Shown here: piece after piece, positions 8,773 through 33,176 of the stretch | Position numbering within the stretch: position 1 is the stretch's first letter | Layout: each line of letters starts with the position of its first letter | Assembly: GCA_902780505.1 (NCBI GenBank) | Contig: CACZFN010000030.1 | Coordinates: 1 to 55,435, forward strand | Direction of reading: 5' to 3' | DNA from: an uncultured Ruminococcus sp. | GTDB lineage: Bacteria; Bacillota; Clostridia; Oscillospirales; Ruminococcaceae | DNA: 55,435 nt | Notes under the pieces: model-generated | What the model was told of the DNA's origin: nothing | Seen by the model: the letters and a program-made list of their open reading frames with translations, nothing else | Databases searched by the model: none | Translations under genes and position numbers: made by a program

Positions 8773-9938
8773 TGTATAAAAAGCTTCTTGCATTTACGGT
8801 CTTGTGTATTGCTTTTATAATAGGAACCGGTGCGTTTTTTATGCATTCGCGTGAAAGCAGCGATGACAGAGAAAGGGAGTTACAGCAGAATATAATCACA
8901 ATAAACGCCGCACAGAAGCTTATTGAAAACGGCGAATATGAAAGTGCTGTGATAAAAACCGCCGAGCTTGAAGTCGCCCTGCGTAACAGCAGCAGTGAGA
9001 AGCGCGGGAATAATGATATATTCGTTATCTGCCTTGTATGTATAGGGGCAGTGATGTTTGTTTCGGGGTATGTGTATGTTAAGATACTTATGCCTTTTGA
9101 TAAGCTTTCCGGCTTTGCGGAAAATATCGCAAAGGGGGATTTTGACACGCCGCTTGAATATCAGCGCTCAGCTTATTTCGGACTTTTTACATGGGCGTTT
9201 GACAATATGCGAAGTGAGATAAACAAATCCCGCGCGTGTGAGCGTGAAGCGATAGAAAACAACAAAACAGTTATAGCAACACTTTCACACGATATAAAGA
9301 CACCTGTGGCATCAATACGTGCATATGCCGAGGGGATAGATGCGGGTATGGCCGCATCACCCGAAAAGCTTGCAAAATATTGTTCCGTTATAATGCGCAA
9401 GTGTGACGAGGTAAGCAGGCTGACAAATGACCTTTTCACACATTCGATAGCCGACCTTGACAAGCTGAGCATATCAAGCGACAGCTTTGAACTTGTTTCA
9501 GCCGCACAGACAGTTGTCAGTGAGCTTTCGGGCGAGCGGGGGGATATTGTTTTTGAAATGCCGTGCTTTGAAGCAGAGGTGAAGCTTGATAAAAACAGGT
9601 TTGAACAGATATGCGAAAATCTTATCAACAATTCAAGAAAGTATGCCAAAACAGATATAAACGTATTCTTCACCCGTGATGAAAATACTGTTACCATGCA
9701 CTTTAAGGACAAGGGAAACGGGATAAATGATGCGGATATGCCATTTATATTTGATAAATTCTACCGCGGTAAAAACTGCGGTGACGAGCAGGGCTCGGGA
9801 CTCGGTCTATACATAGTAAAGTACCTTGTGCAAAAGCAGGGGGGCAGTGTTTTGCTTCATAATATGGCAGACGGTTTTGATGCTGAGGTGACATTCCCCG
9901 CAAAGCCGTCAGGCAGTAGTCGTGCGGTGTTGTCTTAA
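8772..9938 (+). CDS. Sensor histidine kinase
   Basis: This 388-residue membrane kinase has TM1 at about 5-22, a short extracytoplasmic region, TM2 at about 78-98, then a HAMP-like linker. The HisKA dimerisation helix contains the phospho-acceptor ATLSHDIKTPVASI. The HATPase_c domain has N-box ENLINNSRKYA, G1 DKGNGI and G2 GSGLGLYIVKYL. ATG 8772 overlaps the regulator stop, and GGAGG lies 8 nt upstream. The short sensor region and neighbouring FtsX-type transporter suggest sensing of envelope stress or peptides. Confidence 0.9.
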   Translation: MYKKLLAFTVLCIAFIIGTGAFFMHSRESSDDRERELQQNIITINAAQKLIENGEYESAVIKTAELEVALRNSSSEKRGNNDIFVICLVCIGAVMFVSGYVYVKILMPFDKLSGFAENIAKGDFDTPLEYQRSAYFGLFTWAFDNMRSEINKSRACEREAIENNKTVIATLSHDIKTPVASIRAYAEGIDAGMAASPEKLAKYCSVIMRKCDEVSRLTNDLFTHSIADLDKLSISSDSFELVSAAQTVVSELSGERGDIVFEMPCFEAEVKLDKNRFEQICENLINNSRKYAKTDINVFFTRDENTVTMHFKDKGNGINDADMPFIFDKFYRGKNCGDEQGSGLGLYIVKYLVQKQGGSVLLHNMADGFDAEVTFPAKPSGSSRAVLS

Positions 9939-9967
9939 TGACTTCTTAATAACTTATCTGATATAAT
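9935..9967 (+). promoter_or_regulatory. Direct-repeat operator and -10 box upstream of the MacB/Bce-like transporter
   Basis: TTAATGACTTC (9935-9945) and TTAATAACTTA (9946-9956) form a direct repeat with an 11-bp period. They sit just before TATAAT (9962-9967). There is no good -35 hexamer, as expected when an OmpR-type regulator replaces it. This is an inference from architecture. Confidence 0.5.
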
Positions 9968-25890: not shown

Positions 25891-25926
25891 TTTGTTGCAC
25901 ATTTGTTGCGGGGGGTGTGTTATAAT
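25891..25926 (+). promoter_or_regulatory. Regulated promoter of precursor 1 (TTTGTTGC box)
   Basis: TTTGTTGC (25891-25898), ACA, TTTGTTGC (25902-25909), then TATAAT at 25921-25926. The direct repeat has an 11-bp period and starts 30 nt before the -10 box. There is no -35 consensus. The same architecture recurs at 26387 and, on minus, at 31150. Confidence 0.75.
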
Positions 25927-25993
25927 GTGTTTGTAAGCTAAAGGCGGCGCCCGGCTGCCTGTTTGCGTAATAAATTATAAGGAGGAAAACACT

Positions 25994-26212
25994 ATGAACG
26001 AAAATTTTGAAAAGTACATTAAGGACTTATCCCCGGAATTGCAGGAAAAGGCAAGGGAGTGCAAGACAAAGGAAGAACTTAATGCTTTTATAGCGGAAAA
26101 TGATCTCGAACTGCCCGAGGAGGCACTTGAAATGGTAGCAGGCGGCGGCTGTATCACATCAACTGAGATCCCTGATGATCAGCGAAATAATCACCTTTAT
26201 CTACAAAAATAA
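25994..26212 (+). CDS. Nif11-like leader RiPP precursor 1
   Basis: This 72-residue peptide has a Nif11-like leader (1-51): FEKYIKDLSPELQEKARE, KTKEELNAFIAEND, and ELPEEALEMVAGG. The predicted core after Gly-Gly starts GCITSTEIPDDQ and ends HLYLQK, with one Cys. AAGGAGG lies 8 nt before the ATG, and the leader RNA before it is nearly identical to that of precursor 2. The core is hydrophilic and unlike those of its neighbours. A second core-like sequence lies directly behind the stop, hinting at core replacement. Confidence 0.75.
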   Translation: MNENFEKYIKDLSPELQEKARECKTKEELNAFIAENDLELPEEALEMVAGGGCITSTEIPDDQRNNHLYLQK

Positions 26213-26213
26213 G

Positions 26214-26279
26214 GGCGGCGGCTGTTTATGCATTATCTGTAAAAGATATATGGAGCAGTCCGAATTGGAATCAGTATAG
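26214..26279 (+). pseudogene. Relic RiPP core sequence
   Basis: Two bases after the precursor 1 stop, GGCGGCGGCTGT repeats the Gly-Gly-Cys junction of precursor 1 (26141-26152). Read from 26214 it encodes GGGCLCIICKRYMEQ, then SELESV and TAG. There is no leader, start codon or ribosome binding site. The CxCxxC pattern looks like a displaced core. The frame differs from that of precursor 1. Confidence 0.5.
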
Positions 26280-26386
26280 TAACTGCATGAGAATTCTCTC
26301 TCATCACAGCGAGGAATGAAAATTCGTCGTTATACACAAACGATCATCAAAAAGTTTATTTATTATGTTTGATAAAAAACGGGCGG
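26280..26386. other. Short intergenic stretch between precursors 1 and 2
   Basis: No gene. It contains weak hairpins (GAATT...AATTC at about 26293-26325; ATCAAA/TTTGAT at about 26346-26374 followed by A-rich sequence), neither a convincing terminator. Confidence 0.35.
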
Positions 26387-26422
26387 TTTGTTGCACATTT
26401 GTAGCAGATGATGTGCTATAAT
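26387..26422 (+). promoter_or_regulatory. Regulated promoter of precursor 2 (TTTGTTGC box)
   Basis: TTTGTTGC (26387-26394), ACA, TTTGTAGC (26398-26405), TATAAT at 26417-26422. It has the same 11-bp period and 30-nt spacing as the precursor 1 promoter. The transcribed leader to the ATG is also nearly identical. Confidence 0.75.
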
Positions 26423-26489
26423 GTGTTTGTAAGCTAAAGGCGGCGTCCGTCTGCCTGTTTGCGTAATAAATTATAAGGAGGAAAACACT

Positions 26490-26744
26490 ATGAACGAAAA
26501 TTTTGAAAAGTACATCGAGGGCTTATCCCCCGAATTACAGGAAAAGGCAAGGGCTTGCAAGACAAAGGAAGAACTTAACGCCTTTATCGCCGATAATGAC
26601 CTCGAACTGCCCGAGGAGGCACTTGAAATGGTAGCAGGCGGCTGCGGAACTCCTCTCAAATGTGATAGATGCGGAGCAGTAATGGACCACCTATACAACT
26701 CTTTCTGGAAATGCCCCAAATGCGGGTATTCAAAAACGGGGTAA
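26490..26744 (+). CDS. Nif11-like leader precursor 2 with zinc-ribbon core
   Basis: This 84-residue peptide has leader 1-51 ending ELPEEALEMVAGG, then a core CGTPLKCDRCGAV...KCPKCGYSKTG. The core has C52, C58-x2-C61 and C75-x2-C78, the spacing of a zinc ribbon, with the typical glycine after each CxxC. A metal-binding mature segment behind a RiPP-type leader is unusual. The core DNA (26637-26736) is identical to that in precursor 3. Transcription is predicted from the TTTGTTGC-type promoter. Confidence 0.75.
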   Translation: MNENFEKYIEGLSPELQEKARACKTKEELNAFIADNDLELPEEALEMVAGGCGTPLKCDRCGAVMDHLYNSFWKCPKCGYSKTG

Positions 26745-26751
26745 TATACTA

Positions 26752-26802
26752 ATGAATGCATTTATTGCAGAGAACGATCAGGAGATCCACGAGGAGGTAT
26801 AA
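26752..26802 (+). pseudogene. Truncated leader relic
   Basis: A 16-codon frame reads MNAFIAENDQEIHEEV and stops. It corresponds to LNAFIAEND-LELPEEALEMV of the intact leaders and lacks both ends. Its 3' end (GAGGAGG at 26791-26797) now serves as the ribosome binding site of precursor 3, 7 nt before ATG 26805. Confidence 0.6.
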
Positions 26803-26804
26803 CC

Positions 26805-27296
26805 ATGAACGCAAACTTTGAAAAGTACATTGAGTGTCTTTCCCCCGAAATGCAGGAAAAGGCACGTCAGTGCAAGACAAAGGAAGAGCTTAATGCTTTT
26901 ATAACGGAAAATAACTTAGAGCTGCCCGAGGAGGCTTTGGAGCTTGTTTCGGGCGGCTGCGGAACTCCTCTCAAATGTGATAGATGCGGAGCAGTAATGG
27001 ACCACCTATACAACTCTTTCTGGAAATGCCCCAAATGCGGGTATTCAAAAATGAACGCAAACTTTGAAAAGTACATCGAGGGGTTAAGCCACGAAATGCA
27101 GGAAAAGGCAAGGGAATGCAAGACAAAGGAAGAACTTAACGCTTTTATAGCCGAGAACGATCTTGAGATTCCCGAGGAGGCTTTGGAGCTTGTTTCGGGC
27201 GGGTGCGGAACATCTACGCCCCCTGACAATGATGATAATACGATATCTATAAATGTCAACGGCAACAATCCTAATATCGGAGTAGATAATAAATAA
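26805..27296 (+). CDS. Tandem fused RiPP precursor 3 (leader-core-leader-core)
   Basis: This 163-residue protein is built of two complete precursors in one frame. Leader A is 1-51 (ELPEEALELVSGG), followed by zinc-ribbon core A 52-82, DNA-identical to the core of precursor 2. Leader B starts at Met83 (MNANFEKYIEGL) and ends EIPEEALELVSGG at 133. Core B is CGTSTPPDNDDNTISIN to VDNK, Asn/Asp-rich and with one Cys. The joint is SK-MNANF with no linker. It may be cut at two Gly-Gly sites, or be a recent recombination product. It has no promoter of its own and probably reads from the precursor 2 promoter. Confidence 0.75.
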   Translation: MNANFEKYIECLSPEMQEKARQCKTKEELNAFITENNLELPEEALELVSGGCGTPLKCDRCGAVMDHLYNSFWKCPKCGYSKMNANFEKYIEGLSHEMQEKARECKTKEELNAFIAENDLEIPEEALELVSGGCGTSTPPDNDDNTISINVNGNNPNIGVDNK

Positions 27297-27482
27297 TATG
27301 GTTATATACTTGACACACCACGATTTTGACTGCAAATAATGCTAATGCTTTCAGCGGTTTGCCATAGCCTCCTCCCATTCGTAAGGGGAGGAGGCTGGGG
27401 TTGGGGTGTCCCTACCGCCAAACACGCTGTATTAGGGCTATCAAACGTTGGTGTATTAATGGGATAACCATATGATTATTTA
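27290..27482. mobile_element. MITE-like element with about 45-bp imperfect terminal inverted repeats
   Basis: The left end TAAATAAT (27290-27297) and the right end ATTATTTA (27475-27482) are complementary. The arms continue with ATATGGTTAT / ATAACCATAT and further imperfect pairing, for example ACACACCA against TGGTGTAT. The centre carries a strong hairpin AGCCTCCTCCC...GGGGAGGAGGCT (about 27366-27396). No gene lies inside. It sits between precursor 3, whose stop codon it overlaps, and the radical SAM gene, and could insulate or terminate transcription. Confidence 0.55.
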
Positions 27483-27516
27483 AGAGTATCGTAAACAGAT
27501 ATAATGGGGGATAATA

Positions 27517-28914
27517 ATGTATTACAGACTATCTGACAACATAGCGCTGCGAAGCTGGCAGTTCGTGCCGAGGGCGTATTATATTAAAAATGATCCCTAC
27601 GCAAAGGGGCTTTCAGAGGAGGACTTTGAGCTTCTTCTCAGATGCGACGGTATGCATGATATCGGGCCGGCTGCAGAGCTTGATACACTGAAGCTGCGCG
27701 GACTTATCGAGGAATGTGAAAAGGGTGATAAGCCGTCGGAGTGGTCATCATATAAGTCATATGAACACAGGTACTTCCCGAAGATGAACTTTATGATAAC
27801 GGGCAAGTGCAATTATAACTGCCTGCACTGCTTCAATGCGGCAGACAATGCCCCGATAATGACCGAATGGACTTATGAACAGGCTCTTGACCTGCTCGAT
27901 CAGGCACGTGACTGCGGTGTTTTGGCGTTTACCATAACAGGCGGTGAACCTATGCTGCACCCGCATTTTATGGATATTGTCAAAGCTGTATATGACCGCG
28001 GGATGTTTATTGAGGAACTTAATACGAACGGCTATTTCATTACGCAGGAAAAGCTTGACAGAATGAAAGAGCTGGGGTGTTTTCCTTATATCAAGATATC
28101 ATTTGACGGCCTTGGCTGCCATGACTGGATGCGCGACAGAAAAGGCGCTGAGGAAAAGACGCTTGCTGCAATGGAACTGTGCGTAAAAAACGGCTTCCGT
28201 GTCATGGCACAGACACAGGTGCATAAGAGAAACCTGCACACACTTATCCCCACAGCAAAAAAACTTGACAGCATAGGTGTGAACACTATGCGCCTGATAC
28301 GCACGACTGAGGTATCACGCTGGCTGGAAAACGCTCCTGACAGCTGTCTGCCCATTGAGGACTATTTTGCGGCTATGCTTGATTTTATGAAGGAGTATAA
28401 AACGCTCGGCCTTGATATGGATATAATCATATGGCAGTTTATGAAGGCATATCCGGGGCAGAAAAGCTATTCCCTTGATACTGTTCTTTGTGCAAGCGGC
28501 GAAATGAAGCCGACTGATCCTGTATGCAAGGGCAACAGGGGCATGATAGGTGTGACGTCAGGCGGGGATATAGTCCCATGCCTGCAAATGTCCGGCTATT
28601 TTGAGGAACACGGCATACATATGGGAAACCTCCACAAGACACCGCTTAAAGAGCTTTTAAGCGGGGGGGATTATATGAAGACGGTCTGTACAAATCTTCA
28701 CAAATTTGCAAAGGCAAATGAAAAATGTGCCAAGTGCAGGTATTTCAGATACTGCAACGGCGGCTGCCCTGCGCTCGGTCGTCTTTTCACGGGCGACAGG
28801 AACGGTTCAGATCTTTCAAAATGTATTTACTATGAAAAAGGCTGGTATCAGAAAACCACAAAGGCTATGGAGGGCTGGACTAACCTTACGGCGATAAGAG
28901 AACTGGACGGATGA
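27517..28914 (+). CDS. Radical SAM/SPASM RiPP maturase
   Basis: This 465-residue enzyme has an N-terminal region (1-90) resembling the small winged-helix portion seen in RiPP maturases and a radical SAM core with C98-x3-C102-x2-C105 (CNYNCLHC). ITGGEPMLHP and LNTNG follow. The C-terminal SPASM region holds many cysteines (VLCASGE, DPVCKG, IVPCLQ, CTNLHKF, KCAKCRYFRYCNGGC, LSKC) for auxiliary Fe-S clusters. Such proteins install thioether, epimer or C-C links in precursor peptides. GGGGGA precedes the ATG by 7 nt; TATAAT at about 27494 is a possible -10 box. Likely substrates are the GG-leader peptides upstream. Confidence 0.88.
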   Translation: MYYRLSDNIALRSWQFVPRAYYIKNDPYAKGLSEEDFELLLRCDGMHDIGPAAELDTLKLRGLIEECEKGDKPSEWSSYKSYEHRYFPKMNFMITGKCNYNCLHCFNAADNAPIMTEWTYEQALDLLDQARDCGVLAFTITGGEPMLHPHFMDIVKAVYDRGMFIEELNTNGYFITQEKLDRMKELGCFPYIKISFDGLGCHDWMRDRKGAEEKTLAAMELCVKNGFRVMAQTQVHKRNLHTLIPTAKKLDSIGVNTMRLIRTTEVSRWLENAPDSCLPIEDYFAAMLDFMKEYKTLGLDMDIIIWQFMKAYPGQKSYSLDTVLCASGEMKPTDPVCKGNRGMIGVTSGGDIVPCLQMSGYFEEHGIHMGNLHKTPLKELLSGGDYMKTVCTNLHKFAKANEKCAKCRYFRYCNGGCPALGRLFTGDRNGSDLSKCIYYEKGWYQKTTKAMEGWTNLTAIRELDG

Positions 28915-28977
28915 TCGGTGCTGCATAAATACCATTTGTGCAGCGGGCGGAAATTATATATTTAGCAGGTGTGGATT

Positions 28978-29829
28978 ATGGATATTAACAGCTTGACAGC
29001 AAAGTATGAGCTGAGTGATAATGAAGCAAAAGAGCTTGAGGGATACATTGCAAACCGCTTTGAAGGAATAGAGCCGCATAAGTGCGAAACTTTTGAGTTT
29101 ATAGGCGTGTGGAAAAAGCTTGCGGCACTTGGCGGTATTATCGGTGCAGCTGAGGTCATAAATAAAAAGCTTACCGCTAAGCTGCCGATAGATTTTAAAA
29201 ACCCTGACGGTATAAAGCTTGAGATCTATGATTCGCTTGCGGGTGAGATACCGATAATATACGCCGATGATCCGCAGGATTTTGAATCTCTCGTTGTGAA
29301 TATCGTATACAAGGGCAGGCGTCCTGAAAATATCGGGCAGACGGGGGCTTCGTTTATTTCGGGAAATACAACGCGCCTTATCATTCTTTCCTCAAAGCCA
29401 TACAGCAATGTGCCCGCCTGTGAGCTTTCACTTGATGAAAAAGACTGGGCACGCAGATCAATGCTTATACGCCGCAGTCACGAGTGTACACACTATTACA
29501 CAAAGCAGGCTTTCGGCATTTCAAACAATATCCTGCATGATGAACTTATGGCTGATTTTATCGGGCTGTATGACACATTCGGCTTTTATAAGGCAGAGTG
29601 GTTTCTGCGCTTTATGGGTGTCATAGAGGGCAGCGGCGGCAGGATGGCGGTCTATACAAGCGGCCTTTCTGTTAGTGTCACAAATGCTGTTGCAGAGCTT
29701 TTGACGGCGGCAGCATACGGGCTTGAAAAATGGTCGGAGAGTGAACAGTTCAGTGTACTTTCTCAGGCCGGGCGTATAAACGAAATGTGCAGACTCGGCA
29801 TTACCGGAATGGATGGGCTTGTGAACTAA
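28978..29829 (+). CDS. Protein with HExxH zinc-metalloprotease-like motif
   Basis: I do not recognise the family of this 283-residue protein. It contains RRSHECTHYYTKQAF (H168-E169-C-T-H172) followed by HDELMADFIGLY, where E189 is placed like the third zinc ligand of gluzincins. No signal peptide is present, and one modest hydrophobic patch (AALGGIIGAAEVI) lies near residue 50. It follows the radical SAM gene in the same direction, 63 bp on, with AGGTG 6 nt before ATG 28978. A role in cutting leader peptides at Gly-Gly is an inference; it could also bind metal for another purpose. Confidence 0.65.
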   Translation: MDINSLTAKYELSDNEAKELEGYIANRFEGIEPHKCETFEFIGVWKKLAALGGIIGAAEVINKKLTAKLPIDFKNPDGIKLEIYDSLAGEIPIIYADDPQDFESLVVNIVYKGRRPENIGQTGASFISGNTTRLIILSSKPYSNVPACELSLDEKDWARRSMLIRRSHECTHYYTKQAFGISNNILHDELMADFIGLYDTFGFYKAEWFLRFMGVIEGSGGRMAVYTSGLSVSVTNAVAELLTAAAYGLEKWSESEQFSVLSQAGRINEMCRLGITGMDGLVN

Positions 29830-29926
29830 TAACAATTGGCAGGCGGCATACTGTCTGACATTTTTAGATTATAAAGCTATGGTGCTTTAATTATAATTTT
29901 TTATATTTTACAGGAGAATACTGATA

Positions 29927-30160
29927 ATGAACGAAGACAGAGAACTTGAACTTGACGAGCTTGAAAGCGTTTCGGGCGGAGTGACTTTATTAGGTGATGA
30001 CAGCATTATCGCTTACTGCTCTAAATGTTGAAGAAAGCTTTTAGACCACGGTGCTGTAAGGACGGGTGACGGCGGCACAACCAACATTTTTGAGTGCACG
30101 AACAAAAAATGCACCGAATACGGCAAAAAGAAAAACAACCTTCAGGTAAGGTGGCCGTAA
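29927..30160 (+). pseudogene. GG-leader peptide gene with zinc-ribbon tail, interrupted by in-frame UGA
   Basis: AGGAG lies 9 nt before ATG 29927. The frame encodes MNEDRELELDELESVSGG, a compact double-glycine leader, then VTLLGDDSIIAYCSKC and TGA (30029-30031). The same frame continues RKLLDHGAVRTGDGG, TTNIFECTNKKCTEYG and ends LQVRWP-TAA at 30158. With Gly in place of the stop it gives CSKCGRKLL...CTNKKC, a zinc ribbon. GGA to TGA is one base change. Options are a fresh nonsense mutation, a truncated 34-residue peptide as the true product, or readthrough. No obvious selenocysteine element follows. Confidence 0.6.
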
Positions 30161-30174
30161 AGGAAGGAATAAGC

Positions 30175-30723
30175 ATGATATTATATGTAAACTGCTGTGT
30201 GCGAAGCGATTCTCGCACACACCGCCTTGCAAGGGCTGTACTTGACAAAATGGGCGGGAAGTACACCGAGCTTTACCTTCCCGAGGAGGGACTTGCCCCG
30301 CTTAGCGAGCAGACTCTTGACAAACGCACAAAGCTGATTGAAAAGGGGGAGCTAAACGACGATATGTTTTACTATGCACACCAGTTTGCAAATGCTGACA
30401 GGATAGTGATATCAGCGCCGTTTTGGGACGGCTCTTTCCCGTCCGTACTAAAGGTATACCTTGAAAACATCTACGCTGTGGGGATAGTTTCACGGTATGA
30501 TGAAAACGGTGTGCCTGTAGGAATGTGCAAAGCAAGTGAGCTTGTTTATGTAACAACAGCGGGCGGTGAATATATCCCCGATTTCAGCTATGATTATATC
30601 AAGGCGCTTTCACAGGGGTGCTTCGGGATAAAGAATACCCGCCTTGTAATGGCGCAAGTGCTTGATATAGCAGGCAATGATGCAGAAGCAATATTAACTA
30701 ACGCTATAGCACAAATAAAATAG
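30175..30723 (+). CDS. Flavodoxin-fold NAD(P)H:FMN/quinone oxidoreductase (azoreductase-like)
   Basis: This 182-residue protein has a flavodoxin-like fold: MILYVNCCVRSDSRTHRLARAVL (phosphate-binding loop), ADRIVISAPFWDGSFPSVLKVYLENI (FMN site and dimer contact) and VYVTTAGGEY. It fits FMN-dependent azoreductase/NQO relatives. ATG 30175 follows AAGGAAGG, 14 bp after the UGA-interrupted peptide gene. It might supply electrons or be an unrelated neighbour of the peptide island. Confidence 0.8.
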   Translation: MILYVNCCVRSDSRTHRLARAVLDKMGGKYTELYLPEEGLAPLSEQTLDKRTKLIEKGELNDDMFYYAHQFANADRIVISAPFWDGSFPSVLKVYLENIYAVGIVSRYDENGVPVGMCKASELVYVTTAGGEYIPDFSYDYIKALSQGCFGIKNTRLVMAQVLDIAGNDAEAILTNAIAQIK

Positions 30724-30744
30724 AAGCACAATGCTTAATGCAAA

Positions 30745-30787
30745 AAAGGTATCACTCACATTTTTTGAAGCGATACCTTTATTATTA
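30745..30787. terminator. Terminator after the reductase gene
   Basis: AAAGGTATC (30745-30753) pairs with GATACCTTT (30772-30780), flanked by an A-run on the left and ATTATTATT on the right. It could work in both directions. Confidence 0.7.
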
Positions 30788-30845
30788 TTTATGGTGGCGC
30801 ACATGGTTTTTAAAGCCATAGCCATTTACTGTAAGGCACATGACG

Positions 30846-31082
30846 TTATCGCTGTGTGTGTTTGTTATCCATATCTGTGATTATAGGATTGGGCTTTGGT
30901 ATAATACTGCCGCAGATATTGAAATAACCGCCCGCCACCATTTCAAGTGCTTCTTCGGGGAGTTCTATATCATTTTCAGCTATAAATGCCGAAAGCTCTT
31001 TCAAGTCTTTGCATTGTCTTGCCCCATCCTGAAATTCTTCAGGCAGATCATCTATGTATCTTTCTATTGTGCTGTCAAACAT
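30846..31082 (-). CDS. Nif11-like leader RiPP precursor 4
   Basis: This 78-residue peptide has leader IERYIDDLPEEFQDGARQ, LKELSAFIAENDIELPEEALEMVAGG (ends at residue 52). Its core is YFNICGSIIPKPNPI followed by TDMDNKHTQR, with one Cys and a Pro-rich stretch. The N-terminus MFDST is diverged from the MNENF/MNANF of the other three. AAGGGGG precedes the ATG at 31082. It is convergent with the rest of the island but has the same promoter box, which binds it to the same regulon. Confidence 0.75.
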   Translation of the reverse strand: MFDSTIERYIDDLPEEFQDGARQCKDLKELSAFIAENDIELPEEALEMVAGGYFNICGSIIPKPNPIITDMDNKHTQR

Positions 31083-31114
31083 AATATGCCCCCTTTTTGT
31101 TATTGTCCGGTTTT

Positions 31115-31150
31115 ATTATAACACATCACCTGCAACAGATGTGCAACAAA
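31115..31150 (-). promoter_or_regulatory. Regulated promoter of precursor 4 (TTTGTTGC box)
   Basis: On minus, TTTGTTGC begins at 31150, followed by ACA and TCTGTTGC, with TATAAT at 31120-31115. The first repeat starts 30 nt before the -10 box, exactly as at 25891 and 26387. Confidence 0.75.
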
Positions 31151-31248: not shown

Positions 31249-32445
31249 TTATCTGCCCGAAGACTTGTTAAGATAATCAAGCTGATAATCAAAGGCAAGT
31301 TTTAAGAGCTCGATATACTTGTCCGGCGATTCAGGAAAGCCCTTCAGCATTTTTTCTATATCTTCGTGGAACCCTTCAAGGCGGGCGGGATCATACCAGC
31401 TGTAATCCCAGCCCGTGTTCAGGACATTTGAATTGAACAGAACGATAAGGAAAACGCTTTGCGGATCTTTTATTGCAACAGATGCAGCGCTCAGCTGACC
31501 GTTTTCCATCGGCTGACCAAAGCAGCCGAAGCTCCTGCCCCTGTCAAACAGCGGTGCAGGGCGCAGTTTCAGTGTTTTAAGATCCCTTATAAACCCGAAG
31601 TTTGTTGAATGGCAGTCGCCTGCAAGCGTAAGGTTGAATACGGCTGCGATTTTTGCAAAGTAGGCTGTTACATTTTTTACGCCAAGGCCTTCGATCGTTT
31701 CGGTGAATTTTTTGAGAAAAGCTTTATCCTTGCTTATCATTTTAAGGCTGTTGATGTTTTTTTCATTCATCATTTCAAGTACCTGGCTTGCAGGGACAAA
31801 TTCCTCACCGTCTTTTATCATAGAACGGCAGGCTATATAGTTTTCACCGGCAAATTCATAGTGCGAGTAATCTATGATATCCACGGGATCAAGCAGCCTT
31901 TCTGTAAGCCTTGCCGATAGCAGTTCTGACTGTTCAACAAACGCTGACTGCCCCGCTTCGGATTTTAAAAGAAGCGGCTTGCCGTCAACCCTTATCCATG
32001 CCTTTTTTGAAATGCCGTCAAGTGTCAGGTCAGGGGTGAGCAGGTCTGCCTTTGTGACTGTATCGTAGTCGCATTTAAGTATAGCTTCGCTCAGTGTCGT
32101 ATCATATTCTCTTGCAAAACAGTTTACATCTTTCCATTTAAGTGTTGAACCTGACGGCCTGTACCAGTAGCAGTCTGAAAGTGAAAGTCCTGATGACATG
32201 AATGATAATTCAAGTTCATTATGCGCTTTGAGGGCTTTTATAATTTCTTGCGTGTCACGCCGCCCCGGATGAAGACACCTGTCCTGCAAAAGACGGTAAA
32301 GATTATACCTGATCGTTGCTTCCCTGAAGTGTATCGGCGCATGATCAAACCCGTCAAGCAGGTTTATATTGCTTAGAGTGCAAAAGTTTTCGTCAATACT
32401 GAAATCAATGACTTCATAGTCTTCATTCATAAGGGTATATCTCAT
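31249..32445 (-). CDS. HipA-like kinase-fold protein
   Basis: This 398-residue protein resembles single-chain HipA/CtkA-type kinases in Firmicutes. The C-terminal half has LAGDCHSTNFGFIRDLKTLKL and RPAPLFDRGRSFG, the catalytic-loop and metal-binding patterns of the HipA C-terminal domain; PLLLKSEAGQSAFVEQS could be the nucleotide-binding region. HipA toxins phosphorylate glutamyl-tRNA synthetase, but members differ in targets. No HipB-like antitoxin is nearby. It starts 5 bp after budA and is probably co-transcribed with it. Confidence 0.7.
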   Translation of the reverse strand: MRYTLMNEDYEVIDFSIDENFCTLSNINLLDGFDHAPIHFREATIRYNLYRLLQDRCLHPGRRDTQEIIKALKAHNELELSFMSSGLSLSDCYWYRPSGSTLKWKDVNCFAREYDTTLSEAILKCDYDTVTKADLLTPDLTLDGISKKAWIRVDGKPLLLKSEAGQSAFVEQSELLSARLTERLLDPVDIIDYSHYEFAGENYIACRSMIKDGEEFVPASQVLEMMNEKNINSLKMISKDKAFLKKFTETIEGLGVKNVTAYFAKIAAVFNLTLAGDCHSTNFGFIRDLKTLKLRPAPLFDRGRSFGCFGQPMENGQLSAASVAIKDPQSVFLIVLFNSNVLNTGWDYSWYDPARLEGFHEDIEKMLKGFPESPDKYIELLKLAFDYQLDYLNKSSGR

Positions 32446-32450
32446 TGCCT

Positions 32451-33176
32451 TTACTCTCCCTGCTCGACCTTTTTTATGTCCTCGCCTGATGCGTTTTTCA
32501 GTGAATAGGTATCAAATGCAGGTGAATCCGGCAGCTGTATCTCTAAGCAGTTTATCTTTATCATTTCAGCTTTGCCGCTGTTCATTTCAAGTTCAAATAC
32601 ATGGCCGCCCTTTTTCCTGTCGTCCGATACAAAATGCAGGTGCCAGCCCGATGCGTTTATACCGTCCATATAGTCGGGGTAGTAAACACAGACAAGCGAG
32701 CCTGAAACGTCATCAAAGCGAAAATCACGCTGTGTAACGCTCAGGGCATCTTTCAGAGTTACGTGGTGAGCCTTGTAGGCGGATTCCGAACGTGCATATA
32801 TCTTTGAAAAGCTGCCGTCAATGCGTATTATATGCATACTGTTGAGGCCGAAGTGTTCCTCTATTTTAAGTGTGAGCGTTTCTTTAAGTGCAGCGATGTT
32901 CTTTGCACCGCCTATCTCAAAGCGTTCGGCGTTTTCCATTTTTGCCACCGATGAAAACGGAACGCCGGCGCTGCCGTCGGCTTCGGTAACGATACCGTCA
33001 TGTGCTGCTTTGTAGCAGCGGCCGTCAAGGACTATCATCTCACCGTTTACGTCTTCAAACGTACCAAGACCGATATTTCCGTGGCGCAGAAGTTCATCAA
33101 CGCTTACAACGGATTTTGAATAACCGAGTGCTAATGCCTGAAGTGTTGACACCTGGTACATTTTTATCTTTTTCAT
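32451..33176 (-). CDS. budA: Alpha-acetolactate decarboxylase
   Basis: This 241-residue enzyme converts acetolactate to acetoin. Family signatures are YQVSTLQALALGYSKSVVSVDELL, HGNIGLGTFEDVNGEMIVLDG, and the zinc-binding ASGWHLHFVSDDRKKGGHVFE with three His. It probably diverts pyruvate-derived acetolactate to neutral fermentation products or balances branched-chain amino acid synthesis. GGAG precedes the ATG. A consensus-like promoter drives it divergently from ptsI. Confidence 0.92.
   Translation of the reverse strand: MKKIKMYQVSTLQALALGYSKSVVSVDELLRHGNIGLGTFEDVNGEMIVLDGRCYKAAHDGIVTEADGSAGVPFSSVAKMENAERFEIGGAKNIAALKETLTLKIEEHFGLNSMHIIRIDGSFSKIYARSESAYKAHHVTLKDALSVTQRDFRFDDVSGSLVCVYYPDYMDGINASGWHLHFVSDDRKKGGHVFELEMNSGKAEMIKINCLEIQLPDSPAFDTYSLKNASGEDIKKVEQGE

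Follow-up and report, generated by a model that had tools for sequence, protein, structure and literature searches.

A probable node of a dispersed Nif11/NHLM-type library of zinc-ribbon-like peptides with an associated radical SAM/SPASM enzyme in an uncultured Ruminococcus

A DNA stretch of 55,435 nucleotides from an uncultured Ruminococcus sp. (hereafter the window) carries, between positions 25,891 and 31,150, an island in which genes for peptides with long leaders ending in Gly-Gly (GG) stand beside a radical SAM/SPASM enzyme and an HExxH protein. It has the appearance of a locus for ribosomally synthesized and post-translationally modified peptides (RiPPs), and it raises the question of what such an island makes and how the products could leave the cell. 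The window is one contig (G000:C30, 55 kb) of a genome (G000) of 2.82 Mb in 51 contigs that is 98.6% complete; G, C and L numbers below designate genomes, contigs of G000 and loci. We consider it probable that the island belongs, as one node, to a dispersed library of putatively exported zinc-ribbon peptides of the Nif11/NHLM type, with which the radical SAM enzyme is associated.

The window encodes five leader-core units in four open reading frames (ORFs), one of which holds two fused units (Table 1). When precursor 1 was used as the query of a whole-genome search, the other four window units were recovered at E = 7.4 × 10−17 or better; thus their likeness is not due to chance. The GG-leader genes that the original prediction had seen are therefore real, and several different cores in a multi-precursor radical SAM/SPASM system were confirmed. 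However, the same prediction had joined them into one cluster, and this part did not survive. The 12 leader matches of the genome are spread over three contigs: the window holds five, a C18 array six and C24 a single one. The exporter is encoded on a fourth contig; what the precursor groups share is a promoter element. Radical SAM matches (E ≤ 1 × 10−40) in this genome sit on C30 and C7 alone, so the C18 array has no radical SAM gene beside it.

The cores were compared in a set of related precursors. From 158 profile matches (69 + 89) we removed those that lacked a recognised GG (7) or a start (3), which left 148 precursors, 136 of them distinct; the loci had been collected through the leader or the enzyme, never through the cores. 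Two knuckles of the form C-x2-4-C...C-x2-4-C were found in 97 of the 136 cores, and a looser pattern with His for a knuckle Cys added 18 more, giving 115 with a two-knuckle Cys4 or looser Cys/His pattern. At least four Cys were present in 118 cores and a Cys at position +1 in 80. The motif CPxGGxHx[WF], in which His at a knuckle position is clearest, occurred in nine (six in the His-for-Cys class, three in the Cys4 class). Clustering at 40% identity gave 87 core families, and the two-knuckle pattern was present in 58 of their representatives (shuffle mean 9.3, maximum 18) and Cys at +1 in 40 (shuffle mean 7.4, maximum 18). Precursor 2 gave weak matches to zinc-ribbon families, far under the cut-offs (S27ae, E = 7 × 10−4; RNA polymerase subunit P, E = 9 × 10−4), and its model has four leader helices and a strand-rich core. 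The patterns and this model imply that most related cores are zinc-ribbon-like, with zinc binding predicted. Retention of the cysteines is suggestive only: Cys positions in cores were changed in 1 of 37 cases against 55 of 487 for others (p = 0.16), and in 6 of 71 against 170 of 889 in a comparison with overlapping pairs (p = 0.025).

The radical SAM protein and its Cys-rich SPASM region were both recovered above the Pfam cut-offs (PF04055, 75.2 bits, cut-off 29.5; PF13186, 31.9 bits, cut-off 21.5), as the original prediction had described them, and the CX3CX2C motif and seven SPASM cysteines are invariant in all 15 aligned homologues. No cut-off was passed among the best 25 of the 77 matching NCBIfam families of named radical SAM maturases (best score 106.6 against 500). 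The closest solved enzyme by sequence, and the only solved relative at E ≤ 1 × 10−8, is the sactisynthase SkfB (6efn, E = 2 × 10−11), the match spanning residues 90-307 only. The enzyme probably modifies the precursors. Through this protein we found 19 named loci, which are not 19 genomes because L028 and L031 share one assembly. Their labels are Ruminococcus, Clostridia, Clostridiales, Oscillospiraceae, Lachnospiraceae or simply bacterium, and several come from the ruminant gut (rumen of water deer, omasum and duodenum of goat, omasum of yak). One is the cultured R. flavefaciens YRD2003 (L040), which has the radical SAM gene and two precursors; neither exporter nor element was found in the 17 kb examined.

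In locus L042, three full-length radical SAM ORFs stand in a row with one fragment; the short-leader precursors there have core cysteines spaced in another pattern. On C7, an operon (L059 6529-10707) encodes a SpoIIE-type phosphatase, a protein of 211 residues and a radical SAM paralogue that is truncated (320 residues, 41% identical, no SPASM match in Pfam). A role in anti-phage defence was rejected, since PADLOC yielded no more than general matches to radical SAM (viperin, 65 bits) and ABC proteins (up to 105.8 bits). A viral or phage origin was likewise set aside; IMG/VR gave a single weak match to a precursor and a single weak fragment of a radical SAM protein.

The likeness to SkfB and the richness of the cores in Cys, both in those with at least four and in those with one at +1, would also suit sacti- or ranthipeptide-type RiPPs, in which the enzyme forms thioethers from core cysteines and CxxC serves crosslinking instead of metal binding. 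However, the His at the place of a knuckle Cys in 18 of the 136 cores (by the loose pattern) fits a metal site but would not fit a thioether, and this exchange thus favours metal binding over crosslinks. In addition, paired CxxC knuckles model as ribbon-like strands, and several cores within the same arrays have one Cys or none. We therefore regard the thioether explanation as unlikely.

Leaders are the conserved part of these precursors, and the term Nif11-like, which had been given to them, fits loosely. A conserved leader, a GG cleavage site, a variable core and paralogous expansion are traits of Nif11-type precursors and all are present. However, the curated cut-offs were missed: the window leaders scored 13.6-15.1 bits against TIGR03798 (cut-off 32.3) and 13.8-18.4 bits against PF07862 (cut-off 23.8), and the minus-strand precursor 4 matched neither family. 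Two relatives with longer leaders came nearer to TIGR03798 (29.8 and 26.4 bits), still under its cut-off. Hydrophobic residues occupy all of positions −4, −7 and −12 in 132 of the 136 related precursors, including all five window leaders. At E ≤ 1 × 10−6 the leader was found in 7 of 120 genomes, our own included (G000, G001, G002, G004, G005, G006 and G021). The largest number, 56 matches, came from G004, a genome only 58% complete; its arrays L112 and L113 hold 32 and 22 tandem leader matches, two of those in L113 being partial or without a recognised GG.

It had been noted as unusual that no dedicated ABC exporter or C39 protease is adjacent. This is correct for the window, where no C39 or exporter gene adjoins the island; however, an NHLM-type C39/ABC pair exists elsewhere in the genome. 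The only C39 peptidase match in G000 (E ≤ 0.001) lies on C29, in a row of genes for a histidine kinase, a response regulator, a STAS protein, an RsbW-like kinase, a SpoIIE-type phosphatase, a second STAS-like protein, an HlyD-like protein, ABC1 with the C39 peptidase, and ABC2. ABC1 passed the cut-off of TIGR03796 (924.7 bits against 853.3) and the peptidase-less ABC2 that of TIGR03797 (714 against 709.4), while the HlyD-like protein of 140 residues missed that of TIGR03794 (31.2 against 156.2; model positions 1-65 of 421). The C39 domain matched LahT (6mpz) at 222.6 bits. LahT requires the leader residues Val-4, Leu-7 and Leu-12 (PMC6363468; here and below, statements on published systems refer to extracts of the cited papers).

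We then estimated co-occurrence in the 120 genomes (E ≤ 1 × 10−40 for the radical SAM protein, 1 × 10−150 for ABC1, 1 × 10−8 for DUF7005, the family of the HExxH protein, and 1 × 10−6 for the leader), where 10, 15, 7 and 7 genomes were positive, respectively. ABC1 was present in all 10 genomes with the radical SAM gene and in 5 of the 110 without it (Fisher's test, p = 2.6 × 10−11; kinship uncorrected here and in the following tests), namely G003, G024, G041, G055 and G073. All seven DUF7005 genomes carry ABC1 (p = 1.1 × 10−7), and six of the seven leader genomes hold both ABC1 (p = 8.9 × 10−6) and the enzyme (p = 3.9 × 10−7). Leader and radical SAM gene thus co-occur in relatives, which was the comparison proposed with the original prediction. 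The enzyme was found with no leader at this threshold in G009, G026, G050 and G077; a looser search recovered longer leaders in G050 and G077 (L022, L119, L020 and L120), and long leaders were recognised by eye in G009. At the level of loci, HlyD-like and ABC genes accompany the radical SAM gene in 12 of the 19 named loci under a greedy choice of ORFs, L031 being a 13th, and several of the remaining loci end close to the radical SAM gene.

The predicted HExxH protein is real and belongs to DUF7005 (PF22541, 177.7 bits, cut-off 27). Residues H168, E169, H172, H187, E189 and D193, which form HExxH and then HDExxxD, are invariant in all nine aligned sequences. Despite a confident model (predicted local distance difference test, pLDDT, 92), no significant relative was found in the PDB by fold or by sequence. 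In G009, DUF7005 has as neighbours an NHLM-like exporter, long-leader precursors and a radical SAM protein that is only distantly related (27%); inspected by eye, the cores of these precursors contain no zinc ribbons. The reading of DUF7005 as a part specific to zinc ribbons was rejected on this ground, and since DUF7005 sits there with the exporter and non-ribbon cores, it seems to be part of the export system rather than of the zinc-ribbon cargo. This G009 locus (L117 9945-13762; genome size 1.2 Mb) has long Nif11-like leaders in a run, the cores behind them short and in some cases amphipathic-looking, beside NHLM-like genes and DUF7005.

The promoter element shared by the precursor groups is TTTGTTGC, a direct repeat at 11 bp followed by 11 nt and then TATAAT. 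The window contains three sites, none with more than one mismatch, compared with 0 in 100 shuffles, and the island ends, 25891 and 31150, coincide exactly with the outer edges of two of them. The strict form has five sites in the genome, on three contigs, all preceding leader genes. With up to three mismatches there are six sites in 2.82 Mb and 0 in the reversed control, the sixth lying on C7, 93 nt before the SpoIIE phosphatase gene that the truncated radical SAM paralogue follows. Because the pattern was derived from four sites, three in the window and one on C18, the independent sites are those on C24 and C7. With up to two mismatches, 34 sites were found in six of the 120 genomes (G000, G001, G002, G004, G006 and G041) and 0 in the control. 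In relatives the element stands upstream of genes for radical SAM, STAS/SpoIIE, histidine kinase, HipA_C-like and D-Ala-D-Ala dipeptidase proteins, among others; some sites have no clear gene. A sequence-free scan for repeats before a −10 box in 637 kb of fetched loci gave 40 repeats at period 11 against 3-9 at periods 8-10 and 12-14, and 34 of the 40 belong to this type or resemble it closely; as 14 of the 40 come from stretches that had been fetched on account of their sites, the excess is inflated to some degree. In L044, L115 and L041 both half-sites are changed alike. The precursor genes are probably switched jointly.

SARPs bind 11-bp direct repeats through a winged-helix/BTAD domain. 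The response regulator on C29 is the nearest candidate regulator of the element. Since that regulator and a histidine kinase are encoded with the exporter, the exported peptides could instead be signals which the kinase senses, as part of a circuit that responds to cell density and in addition drives the STAS/RsbW/SpoIIE module. With two mismatches, the element stands before STAS/SpoIIE genes of G002 (61% identical) and, in G041, before the gene of a homologous kinase (65%). In addition, G000, G001 and G004 conserve a lone Cys-free leader peptide (75-83% identical) with an element of its own. However, dozens of unrelated cores in one genome, such as G004, are unsuited to one receptor; thus at most a minority can be signals, and we hold the signalling explanation to be really quite improbable. 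The lone peptide itself (L014 7357-7728, from G000:C24:13362 on, whose core lacks Cys; L147 3792-4202; L153 4567-4974) is a candidate for a signal or for a different effector.

D-Ala-D-Ala dipeptidase genes were also seen near exporter or regulator genes (L149 3312-3977, L152 2829-3494, L058 15862-16518 and L123 9487-10155). The L149 copy was tested as PF01427, and the others are 75-87% identical. The element stands 24 nt before the L149 gene and, in L152, before the gene preceding the dipeptidase; the dipeptidase is possibly the cell-wall side of the regulon. Another 11-bp direct repeat with a −10 box, GTCTTAAT/TTCTTAAT, occurs at window positions 9932-9967 and at L112 600 (minus strand). The window site adjoins a different two-component and ABC operon.

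Core exchange is indicated by the different divergence of leaders and cores. Precursors 2 and 3a of the window agree in their core DNA at every position (93 of 93 nt) and in their leaders at 119 of 153 nt. Between genomes, the synonymous distance of cores was 0.08 in five core-matched pairs of G000 and G004, against 0.92 for their leaders, and in six pairs of G000 and G002 it was 0.32 against 1.04; these pairs are reciprocal best core matches, a selection that favours close cores and so weakens the case for exchange. Nevertheless, the ABC1, radical SAM and DUF7005 genes of the same genome pairs differ by synonymous distances of 1.3-2.5, near saturation, so the low core distance still needs recent exchange despite the selection. 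In 9 of 10 profiled pairs, identity by eye rises near the GG codons and often continues beyond the stop; L013 8624 against L030 12405 is an exception. Among inter-genome pairs with cores at least 65% identical, the synonymous difference was lower in the core in 25 of 31 (p = 9 × 10−4, pairs not independent). On these sequence comparisons, cores appear to move between species as cassettes. Eight hand-chosen low-divergence pairs from seven core families gave a ratio of nonsynonymous to synonymous difference (pN/pS) of 1.08 for the core and 0.19 for the leader. Positive selection on the cores is unsupported by this value, 12 of the 63 differences being synonymous, as neutrality predicts. With the sharing of cores, the two ratios indicate that the leader is conserved and that the core is exchanged and free to change.

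Two further explanations bear on these results. The best 50 of 159 Foldseek matches to the core of precursor 2 are mostly ribosome chains, presumably the zinc ribbon L37ae, with RNA polymerase I, TFS4-bound polymerase, exosome and a PhnA-like protein. These matches listed are intracellular proteins, as would be expected if the leader were retained and the products were intracellular zinc-ribbon regulators with a helical domain. However, the combination of GG with hydrophobic −4, −7 and −12, the presence of the C39 exporter in six of the seven leader-bearing genomes and the strong constraint on leaders but not on cores all speak against retention, and we consider it very improbable. On the other hand, the island could be the decaying remnant, in this genome, of a locus that is complete in relatives, giving little or no product. 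The fused ORF, the leader remnant, the interruption of a fifth gene (see below), the truncated leaders in the C18 array (L013 9471-9797 and 9700-10212), the non-adjacent exporter and the lack of an element before the radical SAM gene would all fit. Against this, the radical SAM, DUF7005, ABC1 and ABC2 frames are open with conserved motifs, the window elements have at most one mismatch and leaders in related pairs are under purifying selection, so that decay is in our view rather unlikely. The leader remnant is a probable recombination scar, and together with the fused ORF and the C18 truncated leaders it looks like a by-product of core exchange.

Several results weigh against a dispersed library of exported zinc-ribbon peptides. 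The zinc-ribbon pattern is missing in three of the five window cores and in 21 of the 136 overall. The model of precursor 2 is of modest quality (pLDDT 69; predicted template modelling score 0.40), and Foldseek with its core returned 159 matches at E ≤ 10 but none at E ≤ 0.001 (best E = 0.24); the top rows align at a root-mean-square deviation above 5, with short alignments at 0.9-1.7 over 26-32 columns. A profile of the N-terminal part of the radical SAM enzyme found no convincing relative in the PDB or Pfam, so that a leader-binding domain was not recognised. The element was found neither before the window radical SAM gene nor in the 20-kb C29 stretch. The DNA-binding half of the C29 response regulator matched EmbR, which we take to be a SARP-type protein, at E = 0.7 as one sequence, and a four-sequence profile gave no match. 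In addition, G041 (98% complete) and G003 (incomplete) have the exporter with no radical SAM gene or leader at the thresholds used, and G001 (incomplete) has one leader and neither enzyme nor ABC1. Finally, the cores show no overall purifying selection since exchange, which fits diversifying use and also neglect.

If the favoured reading of a dispersed, exported library is correct, the system may work as follows. The two-component system encoded with the C29 exporter would switch on the precursors through the 11-bp repeat before the −10 box. The helical leader would recruit the radical SAM/SPASM enzyme, which may modify at least some cores, and DUF7005 would probably be a peptidase accessory of the exporter. 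Most mature cores, more than half with a predicted N-terminal Cys, would fold round zinc as small ribbons, as implied by sequence and a modest model. New cores would arise by recombination, cassettes from other species or from neighbour genes replacing the core behind a resident leader, as the selected pairs suggest. The products would most likely act outside the cell as competition peptides, which is the weakest step. A wider proposal, which we put forward tentatively and with some doubt, is that these precursors give rise to a new class of exported, metal-dependent peptides, a repertoire of zinc-ribbon effectors with up to tens per genome, with a common leader, radical SAM enzyme, exporter and promoter, whose cores are traded as cassettes at the leader/core boundary in one rumen pool and diversify without detectable purifying constraint.

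The Lah cluster of Lachnospiraceae C6A11 is, we assume, a lanthipeptide cluster, and TIGR04103 (nif11-class radical SAM maturase 3), to which the window enzyme scores 81.7 bits against a cut-off of 725, presumably covers PlpX. The leader and NHLM exporter families are already known. Haft, Basu and Mitchell (2010; PMC2887384) described the NHLM/Nif11 families (TIGR03793-03798), with which our system shares paralogous GG leaders, variable cores and export by a C39 ABC1, a peptidase-less ABC2 and an HlyD-like protein. Unlike in those families, the window leaders fall under the TIGR03798 and PF07862 cut-offs and lack an 18-residue stretch found in the L021 leader, the cores are zinc-ribbon-like and the HlyD-like protein has 140 residues only. 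NHLM systems in that paper have TOMM or LanM enzymes instead of a radical SAM enzyme, and the term "radical SAM" is absent from its main text. In the Lah cluster, nine precursors combine diverse cores with one shared Nif11 leader, and its LahT has a C39 domain like that on C29 that reads the same leader positions; zinc-ribbon cores are not mentioned in the extract of that paper (PMC6363468). Prochlorosins likewise combine large Nif11 libraries and varied cores with one promiscuous enzyme, there of LanM type, and recombination is a suspected source of their variety (PMC10783134, PMC2887384), whereas core exchange is seen here at the nucleotide level. P. marinus has 29 predicted precursors (PMC2887384), compared with the 56 leader matches of G004. 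Spliceotides (PlpX) share a radical SAM/SPASM enzyme that acts on peptides with Nif11/NHLP leaders (PMC11002830).

In the open-licence PMC literature (subscription papers and preprints being outside its scope), nothing was found that links a zinc ribbon with RiPP, leader peptide and radical SAM, and a query for zinc ribbon, bacteriocin and leader peptide returned only work on Treponema peptides, judged unrelated from the title and the start of the abstract. Zinc-ribbon cargo was thus not found there. Neither the promoter element, at which no search was aimed, nor core exchange at the nucleotide level was met in the literature on such systems. If the reading is true, RiPP-style leader systems carry folded metal-binding mini-proteins, beyond short crosslinked peptides. 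The element would offer a simple DNA pattern for finding members anywhere, all five strict matches in G000 preceding leader genes, although four of these five matches supplied the pattern. The leader/core boundary resembles a natural exchange joint, which makes the diversification of peptide libraries directly testable, and a tolerant exporter with its leader would be candidate tools for the secretion of small zinc-binding proteins from anaerobes.

Table 1. Features of the island and its borders (window positions).
Feature	Position	Strand	Remarks
Promoter copy 1	25891-25926	+	0 mismatches; upstream of precursor 1
Precursor 1	25994-26212	+	51-aa leader ending VAGG, core GCITSTEIPDDQRNNHLYLQK without zinc ribbon; similar cores in G002, G004
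Promoter copy 2	26387-26422	+	1 mismatch; upstream of precursor 2
Precursor 2	26490-26744	+	leader and zinc-ribbon-like core, C-x2-C ... C-x2-C
Leader remnant	26752-26802	+	starts ATG AAT GCA TTT ATT GCA GAG AAC GAT; direct sequence reading
Precursor 3	26805-27296	+	two complete leader-core units in a single frame
Precursor 3, unit a	26805-27050	+	core DNA same as precursor 2
Precursor 3, unit b	27051-27296	+	core CGTSTPPDNDDNTISINVNGNNPNIGVDNK
Radical SAM/SPASM enzyme, putative maturase	27517-28914	+	conserved N-terminal domain of ~85 residues
DUF7005 (PF22541) HExxH protein, putative zinc metallopeptidase accessory	28969-29829	+	
Fifth, short-leader GG gene, TGA-interrupted	29927-30031	+	rest of frame to ~30160
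Flavodoxin-fold/FMN reductase-like protein	30175-30723	+	membership uncertain; L031 homologue adjoins a fifth-gene relative
Precursor 4	30846-31082	-	leader and core YFNICGSIIPKPNPIITDMDNKHTQR; one Cys, without zinc ribbon
Promoter copy 3	31115-31150	-	~32 nt before precursor 4
HipA_C-like protein (below cut-off)	31249-32445	-	possible member; homologues in 4 other loci

The fifth small GG-leader gene of the original prediction is present, but it is cut by an in-frame TGA. It reads MNEDRELELDELESVSGG and 16 further residues, with the TGA (30029-30031) after 34 codons; its leader of 18 residues keeps Val-4, Leu-7, Leu-12 and GG. Beyond the TGA the frame remains open for another 42 codons, which match stretches in L046 at 62% and in L031 at 52% identity (the L031 stretch also being that of L125); the gene is therefore interrupted here. 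The L031 copy is open throughout, and the L046 copy has its own stop further upstream. Both relatives have a sense codon at the place of the TGA, on which ground selenocysteine was rejected, and the interruption is a mutation or an assembly error.

The remaining features adjoin the island or lie between its genes. In G002 a homologue of the HipA_C-like protein (60% identical) has the promoter element upstream of it, at a distance of 93 nt. The intergenic stretch 27360-27440, which lies between the precursor 3 and radical SAM genes, is inverted-repeat-like (CCTCCTCCC ... GGGGAGGAGG), perhaps a repetitive or mobile element. The HipA_C-like gene of the window is immediately preceded, on the minus strand, by an acetolactate decarboxylase-like gene (32451-33176).

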